Below, one piece after another: positions 21,599 to 63,475 of a DNA stretch of 64,000 bases. Every line of letters starts with the position of its first letter. The first letter of the stretch is position 1. Source of the DNA: Klebsiella oxytoca (lineage in GTDB: Bacteria; Pseudomonadota; Gammaproteobacteria; Enterobacterales; Enterobacteriaceae); the NCBI RefSeq assembly GCF_009707385.1, contig NZ_CP046115.1, forward strand, positions 186,001 through 250,000. The letters are read 5' to 3'. The position numbers and the translations under genes are program-made. The notes under the pieces were generated by a model. That model did not search any database. It worked only from the letters and a program-made list of their open reading frames with translations, and was not told the DNA's origin.

Positions 21599-21624
21599 AA
21601 CCCCGCTTCGGCGGGGTTTTTTGT
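21599..21624 (+). terminator. Terminator of the tRNA operon
   Basis: AACCCCGC-TTCG-GCGGGGTT followed by TTTTGTTTT, 7 bases after proM: an 8-bp stem with a stable TTCG loop and a T tract. Confidence 0.93.
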
Positions 21625-21757
21625 TTTCTCATTCTGCAAAAAAATCTTTTATCTTCCTGATATCGCGGAAAATATTTCGTTATCCCTGACGCGATTTATT
21701 GTCCAGAATAATCCCAATTCATTGTTCAGATAGATGCATCTTCTGCAGATCCTGTGC

Positions 21758-21763
21758 GATAAT
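21758..21763 (+). promoter_or_regulatory. Candidate -10 element of glmZ
   Basis: GATAAT lies 6 bases before the expected GlmZ 5' end at 21770. A good -35 is not visible (TGCATC at the 17-bp spacing), and a clear sigma-54 -24/-12 pair is not obvious either, although glmZ is sigma-54 dependent in several enterobacteria. Confidence 0.5.
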
Positions 21764-21876
21764 AAACGGGTAGATGCTCATTCCATCTCTTATGTTCGCC
21801 TTAGTGCCTCATAAACTCAGGAATGATGCAGAGCCGTTTTACGGTGCTTATCGTCCACTGACAGATGTCGTATTTT

Positions 21877-22002
21877 ATATGCTAAATCATTCATGATGTG
21901 TCGAGACGGCCAGCACGGGAATCCACAGGAGCTTACAAAGGTAAGTGACTGGGGTGAGCGTGTGCAGCCAACGAAGAGACAGCGTGAAGGATGAAGCATA
22001 TA
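21877..22002. repeat. ERIC element inside glmZ
   Basis: A 126-bp element ending in inverted ATATGC/GCATAT, with the diagnostic ERIC core at 21918-21960 (CAGGAGCTTAC, then GTAAGTGACTGGGGTGAGCG, which differs from the standard ERIC2 primer word by one base) and GCAGCCAACG. Length agrees with the canonical 126-127 bp. It is largely self-complementary and would fold as a long hairpin in RNA. Confidence 0.92.
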
Positions 22003-22069
22003 GCCTCATCAAACACCATGGACACTACGTTGAGTGAAGCACCCAATTGTTGTCAAACAGACCTGTTTT

Positions 22070-22104
22070 AACGCCTGCCCTGGTTTCAGAGCAGGCGTTT
22101 TTTT
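22070..22104 (+). terminator. GlmZ intrinsic terminator
   Basis: AACGCCTGC (22070-22078) pairs with GCAGGCGTT (22091-22099) across a 12-base loop, followed by a run of T. The stem matches the E. coli GlmZ terminator. Confidence 0.92.
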
Positions 22105-22178
22105 CTTTTCAGGGAGCGGTAAGCGTTCAGGCGGGAAAGGAAGAGACATTCTCGCCCCCGGCGGAGGCGAGAATGTGG

Positions 22179-23375
22179 TTATTGCTGTGGATTATTTTGT
22201 AGGGTTAACAGCAGGCCATCGCGACGCATCGTCGCCGCTTCTTCCGGCTGATGCAGGCGATCGAGCGTATCGGCCAGCCACGCGTAGTCAAATGCATCCG
22301 GGCGCTGCTTGAGCGCGGCACGGAACGCGATGCTGGCTTCCTGCCACTCGCCGTGGCGCATGAGCGATTGCCCCAGCGTGCTCCACAGCAGAGGGCGGTC
22401 GCCGACCGTTTTAAGCTGCTGGCGCAGCGCTTTCTCAAGCTGTTCCGGATTATTGGTTTTCAGCCGTGGAATCGGCATGACCAGCCGATCGTCGTAGTGT
22501 TTTTTCAGACCATCGATAATAATCTGCTGCGCGGTATCATGATCGTCGCTTTCGATAAGGCGATTAGCCATTGCCACCTGTAACGCCACCTGACCGCGGG
22601 TTTTACGATTCTGGCTTTTCCACCAGTCACGCAAACCTTCACTACCGCCGTCGGCCAGCGCTTTATCCATCAGACCAATCCACGCCAGCTGTTCCAGTTC
22701 CGCGCGATGCTCTTCATCGCTGACGTTGGCTTTCGCCATGGATGGAATGATATCCAGCAGCGAATTCCAGGCACCGGTACGAATGTAGGCTTGCTCGGCG
22801 AGACGGAGTACTTCCGGATGGCGCGGGGTGATTTCCAGTAGCCTGTCGATACCGTGGCGGGCGGCATGATTTTCATTACGCGCCAGCTGCAGGCGCACGC
22901 GGGTTATCTCGACAGGAATCAGATCGTCGCCGGCTAATTCGGTTGCGCGCTCCAGATGCTGGTTGGCGCGGGCTTCATCCCCACGCTGCTGGGCTGCTTC
23001 AGCGGCCAAAAGATAGTTAACCACCGGCTGCTCCGCGTGATCGGCATTTTTCGCCATCAGCTTCTCAACCTGCTGATAATCACCTTCCGCCAGCTTCAGC
23101 AGCGCCTGCTCGGTTTGCTTACGAGCACGACGACGCTTGCGGCCCACGAACCAGCCGCGGGTATGCGCGCCGGTACGGAAAATGCGCCGCAGCAGCCACT
23201 CAATAGCAAACAGCACCACCATGGTGAGGATCATGATGATCGCTAACCCGGTAACGCTGGTTTCAATATTGTAGTTATCGGTCTGGATCAGGACGTAGCC
23301 CTGATGACCCGCGATCATCGGCCCGACAACGATCCCGGCAATCAGCAGCGCGAAAAGTAAGAGAATTTTCAACAT
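22179..23375 (-). CDS. hemY: HemY, haem-operon TPR membrane protein
   Basis: HemY is a 398-residue inner-membrane protein with two N-terminal membrane helices (about residues 2-22 and 42-62), a basic linker (RKRRRARK) and a C-terminal series of tetratricopeptide-like helices. It is the last gene of hemCDXY and is thought to act in late haem synthesis as a scaffold; it is not the protoporphyrinogen oxidase of the same name in Bacillus. Length equals E. coli HemY. Start ATG at 23375 is 3 bases past hemX. Confidence 0.95.
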   Translation of the reverse strand: MLKILLLFALLIAGIVVGPMIAGHQGYVLIQTDNYNIETSVTGLAIIMILTMVVLFAIEWLLRRIFRTGAHTRGWFVGRKRRRARKQTEQALLKLAEGDYQQVEKLMAKNADHAEQPVVNYLLAAEAAQQRGDEARANQHLERATELAGDDLIPVEITRVRLQLARNENHAARHGIDRLLEITPRHPEVLRLAEQAYIRTGAWNSLLDIIPSMAKANVSDEEHRAELEQLAWIGLMDKALADGGSEGLRDWWKSQNRKTRGQVALQVAMANRLIESDDHDTAQQIIIDGLKKHYDDRLVMPIPRLKTNNPEQLEKALRQQLKTVGDRPLLWSTLGQSLMRHGEWQEASIAFRAALKQRPDAFDYAWLADTLDRLHQPEEAATMRRDGLLLTLQNNPQQ

Positions 23376-23378
23376 GCG

Positions 23379-24605
23379 TTATTCTCCTTGTGGCGCATGG
23401 TCTGCAGGTGCAGGTGCAGGTGCAGGTGCAGGTGCAGGTGCAGGTGCAGGTGCAGGTGCAGGTGCAGGTGCAGGGGTATTGGCCTGTGCTTCAGCCGGCT
23501 GCGCCATCAGATTACGTACCCGTGTCTGCATCAGCTTCTCCAGCAGCGCCTGGCTTTGCAGGCTTTCCGGTACGTTCATGGTGATGCTTTGCTGGCTGAG
23601 CTTGTCCACATCCTCAAGGAAGGCTTTAGTCGTGGCGTCTTCAGTGTCGTAATAGGCGCGAACCCAGGTTGAGACGTTATCCAACGCCTGTTTGTAGGTT
23701 TCTTCCTGATGGCGCGGCACGGCCTGCGCGGCGACGAGCAGACGGGAGCGAATATTTTCGCGCAGATAGACGTCCTGGTTTGGTGCCAGCAGCGGCACGG
23801 CGGTTTCGTCACGACGACGGACGGTAATAAAGCTGTCCATAAAGTTCTGCCAGCTTTTTTGCAGGTTTACCCGCCACTCGCGAATAGAGCTGGATAGCTC
23901 ATCGCTATCGGAATCCATCGGGGTGTCATCGTCGTTATTGTCCGCCAGACGTAAATTATCGATCTGGTTGGCGAGCTGGTTCACTTTCAGAATGATGCCG
24001 TCATAATCAACCTGACTCACGGCGGAAAGCGAGGCGATATCATCGGTGATGGCGCGACGGGCGCCGATCAGGCTTGGGTCGTTCATATCGGCCAGGCTGG
24101 CATCAGCGCTCTTTAGCAGCGCGGCGGCGGTCGTTACATCCTGATCGCTCCACAGCTTACGTCCGGCCAGTTTCACCAGGAAATCAGCTTGTGCGAGCAG
24201 CCAGGTTTTTGCATCACCGCCGGAGATGACCGCTACTTTTTCCTGCACTTCTTCCAGCTTTTTCGCCAGCGAATCCTGCTGACGCTGCGCTTCCGCCAGC
24301 TGGTCGGTCTGCTGCTTAATGATGCCTTCGAGTTCGCTTTTCTGGCTTTCCTGTGCTTTTTGCAGCGCGGCGATTTGGCTGGAGAGCCCGGCGCTGGTTT
24401 CGTTCTGGCGAGCCGTTTGCGTCTTTGTCAGCCCATAAAGACCTACCCCAGCGGCGAGGGCGATAGCGATGGCTATCGCGCTCAGAGCGAGACTGGTTTT
24501 ACTGCCGCCGTTTTTCTTTTCTACGTTGTTTTCTGGCTGTGGCGTTGTGTCCACGGCCTCCCTGGTCTCTTCAACCACGGCGGATTGATTCTGTTGTTCC
24601 GTCAT
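23379..24605 (-). CDS. hemX: HemX, haem-operon membrane protein with Ala-Pro repeat tail
   Basis: HemX is a 408-residue bitopic inner-membrane protein: acidic cytoplasmic N-terminus, one membrane helix (about 43-62), a periplasmic coiled coil (about 75-135) and a conserved domain. Often annotated as uroporphyrinogen-III C-methyltransferase, but it lacks that enzyme fold and its role is unproven. The start at 24605 ([18 protein letters not shown]) agrees with E. coli; an earlier ATG adds 4 residues. The C-terminal tail contains about 12 Ala-Pro dipeptides made by a perfect hexanucleotide repeat, making it longer than the roughly 393-residue E. coli protein. Confidence 0.94.
23404..23474. repeat. 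Hexanucleotide microsatellite (GCAGGT)n in hemX
   Basis: Eleven perfect copies plus five bases of GCAGGT run uninterrupted from 23404 to 23474. On the hemX strand this reads as alternating Ala and Pro codons. Unit gain or loss keeps the hemX frame. Confidence 0.97.
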
Positions 24606-24626
24606 TATGGCTTCCAATGTTGAGAG

Positions 24627-47423: not shown

Positions 47424-47524
47424 TTTCGAATTTATGGTGCGTTGGCTGCACTTCCTCACCCCAGTCACTTACTTCAGTAAGCTCCTGGGGATGAGCAAGT
47501 TTGCCGCCTTCCCTAAATCCGAAA
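47424..47524. repeat. ERIC element in the metE leader
   Basis: Contains the ERIC core CCTCACCCCAGTCACTTAC and TCAGTAAGCTCCTGGGGAT, GCGTTGGCTGC on the left, TTGCCGCCTT on the right, and inverted ends (TTCGAATTTATGG against CCCTAAATCCGAAA). It lies between the MetJ operator and the metE start codon, within 32 bases of the latter. Confidence 0.85.
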
Positions 47525-63090: not shown

Positions 63091-63475
63091 CGCCATTGTC
63101 ACCATAACTGCGTTGGCTGCGTTCATTCACCCGAATCACTTACTATATGTAAGCTCATCGGGATTTATTCACTTGCCGCCTTGTTCTGGCACCAATGGCT
63201 TTGAGATGACTCTTCGATTCGCCATTGTCACCATCGCTGCGTTGGCTGCGTTCATTCACCCGAAGCACTTACTATATTTAAGCCCATCGGGAGTCATTTA
63301 CTTGCCGCCTTGTTCTGGCACCAATGGCTTTGAGACGACTCTTCGATTCGCCATTGTCACCAAAACTGCGTTGGCTGCGTTCATTCACCCGAAGCACTTA
63401 CTATATGTAAGCTCATCGGGATTTATTCACTTGCCGCTTTGTTCTGGCACCAATGGCTTTGAGATAACTCTTTGA

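Follow-up and report, generated by a model that had tools for sequence, protein, structure and literature searches.

GlmZ is an RNA known from Escherichia coli that controls cell-envelope sugar synthesis. In a 64,000-nucleotide stretch of the Klebsiella oxytoca genome (contig NZ_CP046115.1, positions 186,001 to 250,000; hereafter the window), the glmZ gene carries a repeat element inside its second stem-loop (SL2). The locus raises the question of whether an RNA altered in this way is still a working GlmZ, a GlmZ with a new part, or a failing one, and how the element came to lie there.

A complete GlmZ gene interrupted in one hairpin loop

The earlier note, made from the letters alone, had proposed that an ERIC element sits in the apical part of SL2 of GlmZ, and a covariance model search bears this out. 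The Rfam model RF00083 is covered in full (1-214 of 214) at window positions 21770-22104 (+), where it scores 190.9 bits (the gathering score is 60) and has to accommodate a single long insertion, located in the apical loop of SL2; the insert-free GlmZ of K. grimontii scores 210.2 bits. The flanks, described in that note as intact, thus hold up against the model despite the insert, and the motifs that it named, GATG, CATC, GGTGCTT and AAGCACC, are all present at the places listed here:

21758..21763, + strand: GATAAT, a -10-like box in the presumed promoter of glmZ, unchanged across all 11 genus genomes compared, with insert or without
21770..22104, + strand: GlmZ sRNA gene with insert, 335 nt, matching the full RF00083 model
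21843..21857, + strand: 5' side of SL2, GGTGCTT (21843-21849) and GTCCA (21853-21857), by predicted pairing with 22037-22043 and 22019-22023 respectively
21864..21867, + strand: GATG, the 5' strand of the apical helix at the foot of the insert, predicted to pair with CATC at 22007-22010 (p 0.98)
21876..22002, + strand: ERIC element of 127 nt with TA on both flanks, one of six orthologous copies that form one clade
22007..22010, + strand: CATC, 3' side of the apical helix, predicted to pair with GATG
22019..22024, + strand: TGGACA, in which 22022 and 22024 are E. coli A125 and A127 by alignment with MG1655 glmZ (contacts as given in the available text of PMC9841335)
22037..22043, + strand: AAGCACC, 3' base of SL2, predicted to pair with 21843-21849
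22047..22068, + strand: glmS-pairing stretch TTGTTGTC...ACCTGTTT, with its complement AAACAGGTTGACCGACAACGT in this genome's own glmS leader
22070..22104, + strand: SL3, the intrinsic terminator (helix p 0.95-1.0), within the RF00083 match

At the sequence level only the hairpin loop is interrupted; the insert leaves SL1, the lower and middle parts of SL2, the terminator and the glmS-pairing stretch in place, so that the regulatory 3' part is unchanged, as had been proposed. E. coli GlmZ (SraJ, RF00083) likewise has hemY as neighbour and shares all of these preserved parts. It differs in having no ERIC and a length of about 207 nt (the sequence aligned; the MG1655 record annotates 172 nt), compared with 335 nt here. 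Four tRNA genes lie upstream of glmZ and the counterpart of E. coli hemY lies downstream. Further along, the frame at the place of E. coli hemX (window 23379-24617, -) ends in a long Ala-Pro repeat.

The one-contig genome of 5,394,761 bp was checked for a second intact glmZ elsewhere, and the RF00083 search found a single copy: the other match (68.6 bits) is GlmY, which scores 143.1 bits against its own model, RF00128. The genome also encodes RapZ (284 aa) and glmS, whose leader is complementary to GlmZ at AAACAGGTTGACCGACAACGT. GATAAT lies at a constant distance from the RNA start in all 11 genus genomes compared, and we call it a -10 box from its position only. A simple scan of 21600-22180, the GATAAT site included, detected no sigma-70-like promoter.

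The insert belongs to a repeat family

With a TA counted at each side the palindromic insert spans 21876-22002 (127 nt). Its ends read TATA..TATA, so its exact border is ambiguous, and related insert-free loops offer a plausible empty site. It is a repeat: 42 matches or more occur in its own genome, and 40-41 or more in every one of four relatives, 40 candidates having been scored per genome. This repeat nature was tested here; the name ERIC follows the earlier note and the general consensus of such elements, as does the TAAGTGACTGGGGTGAGCG-type core that we take to be characteristic of them. Length, inverted ends, TA flanks and many copies per genome are all as in ERIC elements; the difference is the position within a regulatory RNA gene. 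A simple scan for terminators gave no candidate within the insert. Elsewhere in the window, partial ERIC-like matches lie at 2744-2788, 47440-47492, 63108-63165 and 63366-63423, all on the minus strand.

Distribution among relatives

GlmZ is present in 20/20 genomes of the genus sample, in three size classes whose large differences all fall at one spot, the SL2 loop. It measures 335-336 nt in six genomes, namely the window genome (G000), K. michiganensis (G008), K. oxytoca (G010), K. spallanzanii (G017), G005 and G007, the last probably 'Enterobacter sp. JUb54'. Four Raoultella-type genomes (G003, G009, R. planticola G011 and G015) have 259-260 nt, with an insert of about 48 nt at the same SL2 spot, and the other ten have 208-218 nt. 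G004, G006 and G012 denote K. grimontii, K. indica and K. pneumoniae. The insert junctions are the same in the six full-length carriers, four of which match named public records showing the same insert, and an assembly or annotation artefact is hardly credible.

The earlier note had also asked whether the ERIC is fixed in a clade. With one genome per species, its presence and absence can be followed across species: the insert does occur in several of them, but it is not fixed, since K. grimontii and G016, both within the oxytoca complex, are without it. The genome of K. pneumoniae ATCC 13883 has a short SL2 loop, and a search of 5,426 E. coli genomes returned no place covering 80% of the query.

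In the wider family sample, 249 of 392 genomes have a GlmZ match above the cut-off. Only two of 248 GlmZ lengths (150 listed, 72 from 80 genomes and 26 from further genomes) exceed 238 nt, those of G000 and G007. Among named loci, the best 80 of 221 relatives in a HemY protein scan, glmZ could be read in 78 (not in L120 and L136). Measured from GATGT to TTGAGTGA, the apical segment has 38-39 nt in 67 of the 67 nearest named relatives outside Klebsiella/Raoultella. In the 11 loci inside that group it has 39, 41, 42, 44 and 48 nt once each, 91 nt twice and 166 nt four times. The constancy outside the genus, together with the rarity of long GlmZ in the family, argues against free tolerance of length. 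Four genomes of genus g46 (L225-L228), outside the 67, have an SL2 tip about 25 nt longer that is not an ERIC, which we count in favor of tolerated length. Within Klebsiella/Raoultella the SL2 cap varies in length (L061-L073), as if loosened before the ERIC entered. In two other genomes (L230, L231) it is the SL1 tip of GlmZ that is longer.

A single origin with a complicated history

All six full-length glmZ ERICs fall into a single clade (support 99/100) in a tree of 45 ERIC rows, which argues for one origin; they are 89-98% alike, and the nearest other ERIC among those compared reaches 77-82% (one other ERIC of G007, L171, was included). A tree built from 6 kb of neighboring sequence groups the window genome, a member of the oxytoca complex, with K. 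oxytoca, K. grimontii and K. michiganensis and places the carriers in two clades, the oxytoca complex on the one hand and G007 among Raoultella-type genomes on the other (support 87/86). One ERIC origin and carriers in two clades can be reconciled only through losses or through exchange of the glmZ region. K. grimontii (G004, L008) and G016 (L009) have an identical short loop, GCGCAAGC, yet are not sisters on the neighbor tree, which hints at such an exchange.

When the ~48-nt Raoultella inserts were aligned to ERIC, three of the four beat all 500 shuffles, and the score of the R. planticola insert was reached by 12 of 500. Judged from these alignments, the short insert is probably a trimmed ERIC, and it is likely, not certain, that it is the same insertion as the full glmZ ERIC. 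All four align better to some other ERIC than to the glmZ ERIC, and the neighbor-gene tree has non-carriers between the two carrier clades, as would be expected had the oxytoca complex and the Raoultella clade each received an ERIC separately. The close likeness and single clade of the six full-length copies speak against two insertions, and the tree is accounted for if the glmZ region descended with losses or was exchanged; we regard separate events as very unlikely.

Predicted structure and RapZ contacts

The earlier note held that GATG and CATC can still pair and that the ERIC would add a rod to SL2, and structure prediction of the 335-nt RNA agrees on both counts. Three stem-loops are predicted, including the SL2 helices, and their pairing probabilities in the window RNA and in the insert-free K. 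grimontii RNA are, respectively, 0.92-0.95 and 0.90-0.95 for GUCCA/UGGAC, 0.98 and 0.99-1.0 for GAUG/CAUC, 0.95-1.0 and 0.96-1.0 for SL3, and 0.35-0.41 and 0.47-0.55 for the SL2 base helix (21843-21849/22037-22043). Across the five oxytoca-complex carriers the predicted values are 0.86-0.95 for GUCCA/UGGAC, 0.98-1.0 for GAUG/CAUC, 0.95-1.0 for SL3, 0.77-1.0 for SL1 and 0.35-0.93 for the SL2 base helix. SL2 is thus predicted to form around the insert, and we count the canonical helices, as in K. grimontii, together with the presence of RapZ, GlmY and the glmS leader, in favor of a GlmZ that still works.

Among the 11 genomes tested, the five oxytoca-complex carriers reach their minimum with a fold that holds SL1, GUCCA/UGGAC and GAUG/CAUC. 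Such a fold lies above the minimum by 1.4 kcal/mol in G007, by 2.3 in R. planticola and by 0.4 in G009, which counts against that reading. Perfect helices in the predicted rod reach at most 8 bp, which is short for RNase III.

How the rod would sit in the processing complex can be gauged from a cryo-EM study (PMC9841335). In its available text, A125 and A127 of SLII are RapZ contacts, RNase E grips SLII and SLIII, with a lateral bulge pointed to, and SLII is a shared RapZ/RNase E binding site and the key determinant of recognition. The equivalents of A125 and A127 (22022 and 22024) are unchanged and lie below the insert in the MG1655 alignment. The SL2 side strand below the insert differs from E. 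coli by one change, CACAACG to CACTACG, which we count against an unaffected GlmZ. The same excerpt has SLII continue over a second RapZ subunit; the SL2 tip may therefore still matter, and a rod there might clash, again a point against unaltered function. According to the available part of PMC6602413, cleavage occurs 6-7 nt after SL2, whatever the sequence.

Conservation and tests for selection on the rod

Outside the insert, the GlmZ sequences of the five oxytoca-complex carriers are separated by no more than two substitutions and two gaps over about 201 positions, compared with 21-36% at the fourfold sites of hemY next door (G007 not included), and we count these near-identical flanks toward a working RNA. 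The insert itself is also well conserved, with 2-4 of 127 positions different across the five species. Other ERICs provide the yardstick: 15 of 51 ortholog pairs from 17 groups are as conserved as the glmZ ERIC or more so, eight of these 15 coming from the close pair G005-G017. Over the same 51 pairs mean divergence is 2.6% for the glmZ ERIC and 6.4% for the others, some of whose very divergent pairs may not be true orthologs. This difference would fit a function and speaks against mere tolerance; read from sequence, however, conservation of the glmZ ERIC is suggestive at best as a sign of function.

Twelve rod pairs vary among the six glmZ copies; seven are kept, one of them by a double change, and five are broken in at least one copy. 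The five-copy glmZ ERIC consensus differs from the ERIC consensus by 23 substitutions, which leave four pairs compensated, one kept after a single change and one broken, where random placement breaks 7.4. Eighteen other ERIC loci behave in the same way (32 compensated, 35 single changes kept, 25 broken), with 25/92 changed pairs broken there, against 1/6 in the glmZ consensus, 2/7 in the window and 4/9 in G007. These counts leave out 14 of 49 ERIC loci, ten being repeats of the same place and four partial or divergent (L165, L166, L168, L203). The pairing pattern therefore speaks of ERICs rather than of GlmZ, and we rejected compensated pairs as evidence for selection on the glmZ rod.

ERICs in hairpins and the tp2 parallel

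At the first 23 ERIC sites there was no hairpin difference (p 0.27-0.39), and a post hoc cut-off gave hairpins at 3/24 ERIC sites compared with 14/713 (p 0.015). A larger set of 65 independent sites, 44 of them new (from 109 loci, 96 distinct), gave no hairpin preference (p 0.62-0.94), the post hoc cut-off now yielding 0/65 versus 9/1430 in a slightly different count window. Targeting of hairpins by ERIC was rejected on this set.

Sixty ERIC-bearing loci, partly non-independent, were scanned against Rfam and gave four matches, one of which spans the ERIC. This is tp2 (RF02030), which in the window genome carries an ERIC in a hairpin loop (G000:C1:958481-958714; L168 941-1174, -). Across nine genomes compared, tp2 is 234 nt long in G000, G005, G010 and G016, 185 in G007, 130 in K. 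pneumoniae and 112 in G004, G008 and G017; by eye these are a full ERIC, an internally shortened ERIC, a small remnant and a short loop. As in glmZ, an ERIC lies in a hairpin loop in the same genus and is shortened or absent in other species, which suggests that the glmZ case is not alone. We know of no established function of tp2, in which GlmZ differs. In G017 a phenylalanine leader match (L176 879-1003) abuts an ERIC with a 3-nt overlap.

Discussion

Our results support the view that the ERIC-bearing GlmZ is a real, shared, single-origin variant of a known sRNA, most likely tolerated and possibly exapted. We think it probable that one old ERIC insertion has been tolerated and that the ~335-nt GlmZ still works; intact flanks and an insert shared by several species agree with the earlier note in favoring tolerance over decay. 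We envision a scenario in which a single ERIC entered the apical loop of SL2 at a TA, somewhere in the Klebsiella lineage. Transcription of glmZ would yield an RNA of ~335 nt, with an irregular rod on SL2 that lies outside the region known to be gripped by RapZ and RNase E, and RapZ would still present this RNA to RNase E, so that glmS would still be activated. The element would persist since the SL2 tip tolerates length, as a rod without a demonstrated task.

The rod could instead have been exapted, so that handling of GlmZ by RapZ and RNase E is changed and GlmS control differs in carriers, for example through slower cleavage or better competition with GlmY. The role of SLII as shared RapZ/RNase E site in the available text of PMC9841335 and the low divergence of the insert beside hemY give this idea weight. 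Yet 15 of 51 ortholog pairs of other ERICs are as conserved or more so, other ERICs keep their pairing about as well, five of the 12 variable rod pairs are broken in at least one glmZ copy, and K. grimontii and G016 do without the insert. We hold exaptation to be unlikely, and its fullest form, a mobile repeat domesticated as a new GlmZ domain whose SL2 rod tunes RapZ/RNase E handling, to be doubtful as well. A third outcome would be a GlmZ partly or wholly defective through misfolding or cutting in the rod, with GlmS control weakened in carriers. The review of MITEs PMC10969869, in its available part, describes ERICs at gene 3' ends in Yersinia enterocolitica that can expose an RNase E site and hasten decay, and the minimum fold of G007 differs from the canonical one. 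Set against this are the preserved flanks, -10-like box and glmS complementarity, and a canonical G007 fold within 1.4 kcal/mol of the minimum. The perfect helices of the rod are also short for RNase III, and a defect appears improbable. Tolerance of an old insertion remains the reading that we favor.

The earlier note knew of no description of an ERIC within GlmZ, and our search of titles and abstract openings, which covered few subscription journals, likewise found none. The accessible text of PMC10907235 has a single mention of GlmZ, whose expression it gives as high in K. pneumoniae MGH 78578, and that of PMC5193452 concerns another Yersinia sRNA. In the available part of PMC10969869, Coxiella sRNAs from QMITE elements are likewise small RNAs to which a MITE contributed sequence. 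Those RNAs are said to originate from the MITE, whereas here the MITE lies within an old conserved sRNA with a known target.

The glmZ locus is a clear case of a bacterial MITE lodged in a conserved trans-acting sRNA. GlmZ serves as a model of adaptor-guided RNase E cleavage, RapZ and RNase E meeting at SL2 according to the available text of PMC9841335, and the insertion is a natural test of how far this RNA can change. The short cap, the ~48-nt insert and the 127-nt ERIC, set on a near-identical base, form a natural series of SL2 tips that lets the importance of the tip be asked. If the element has been domesticated, species with a full rod, a trimmed rod and no rod would constitute a natural allelic series of envelope-precursor control.
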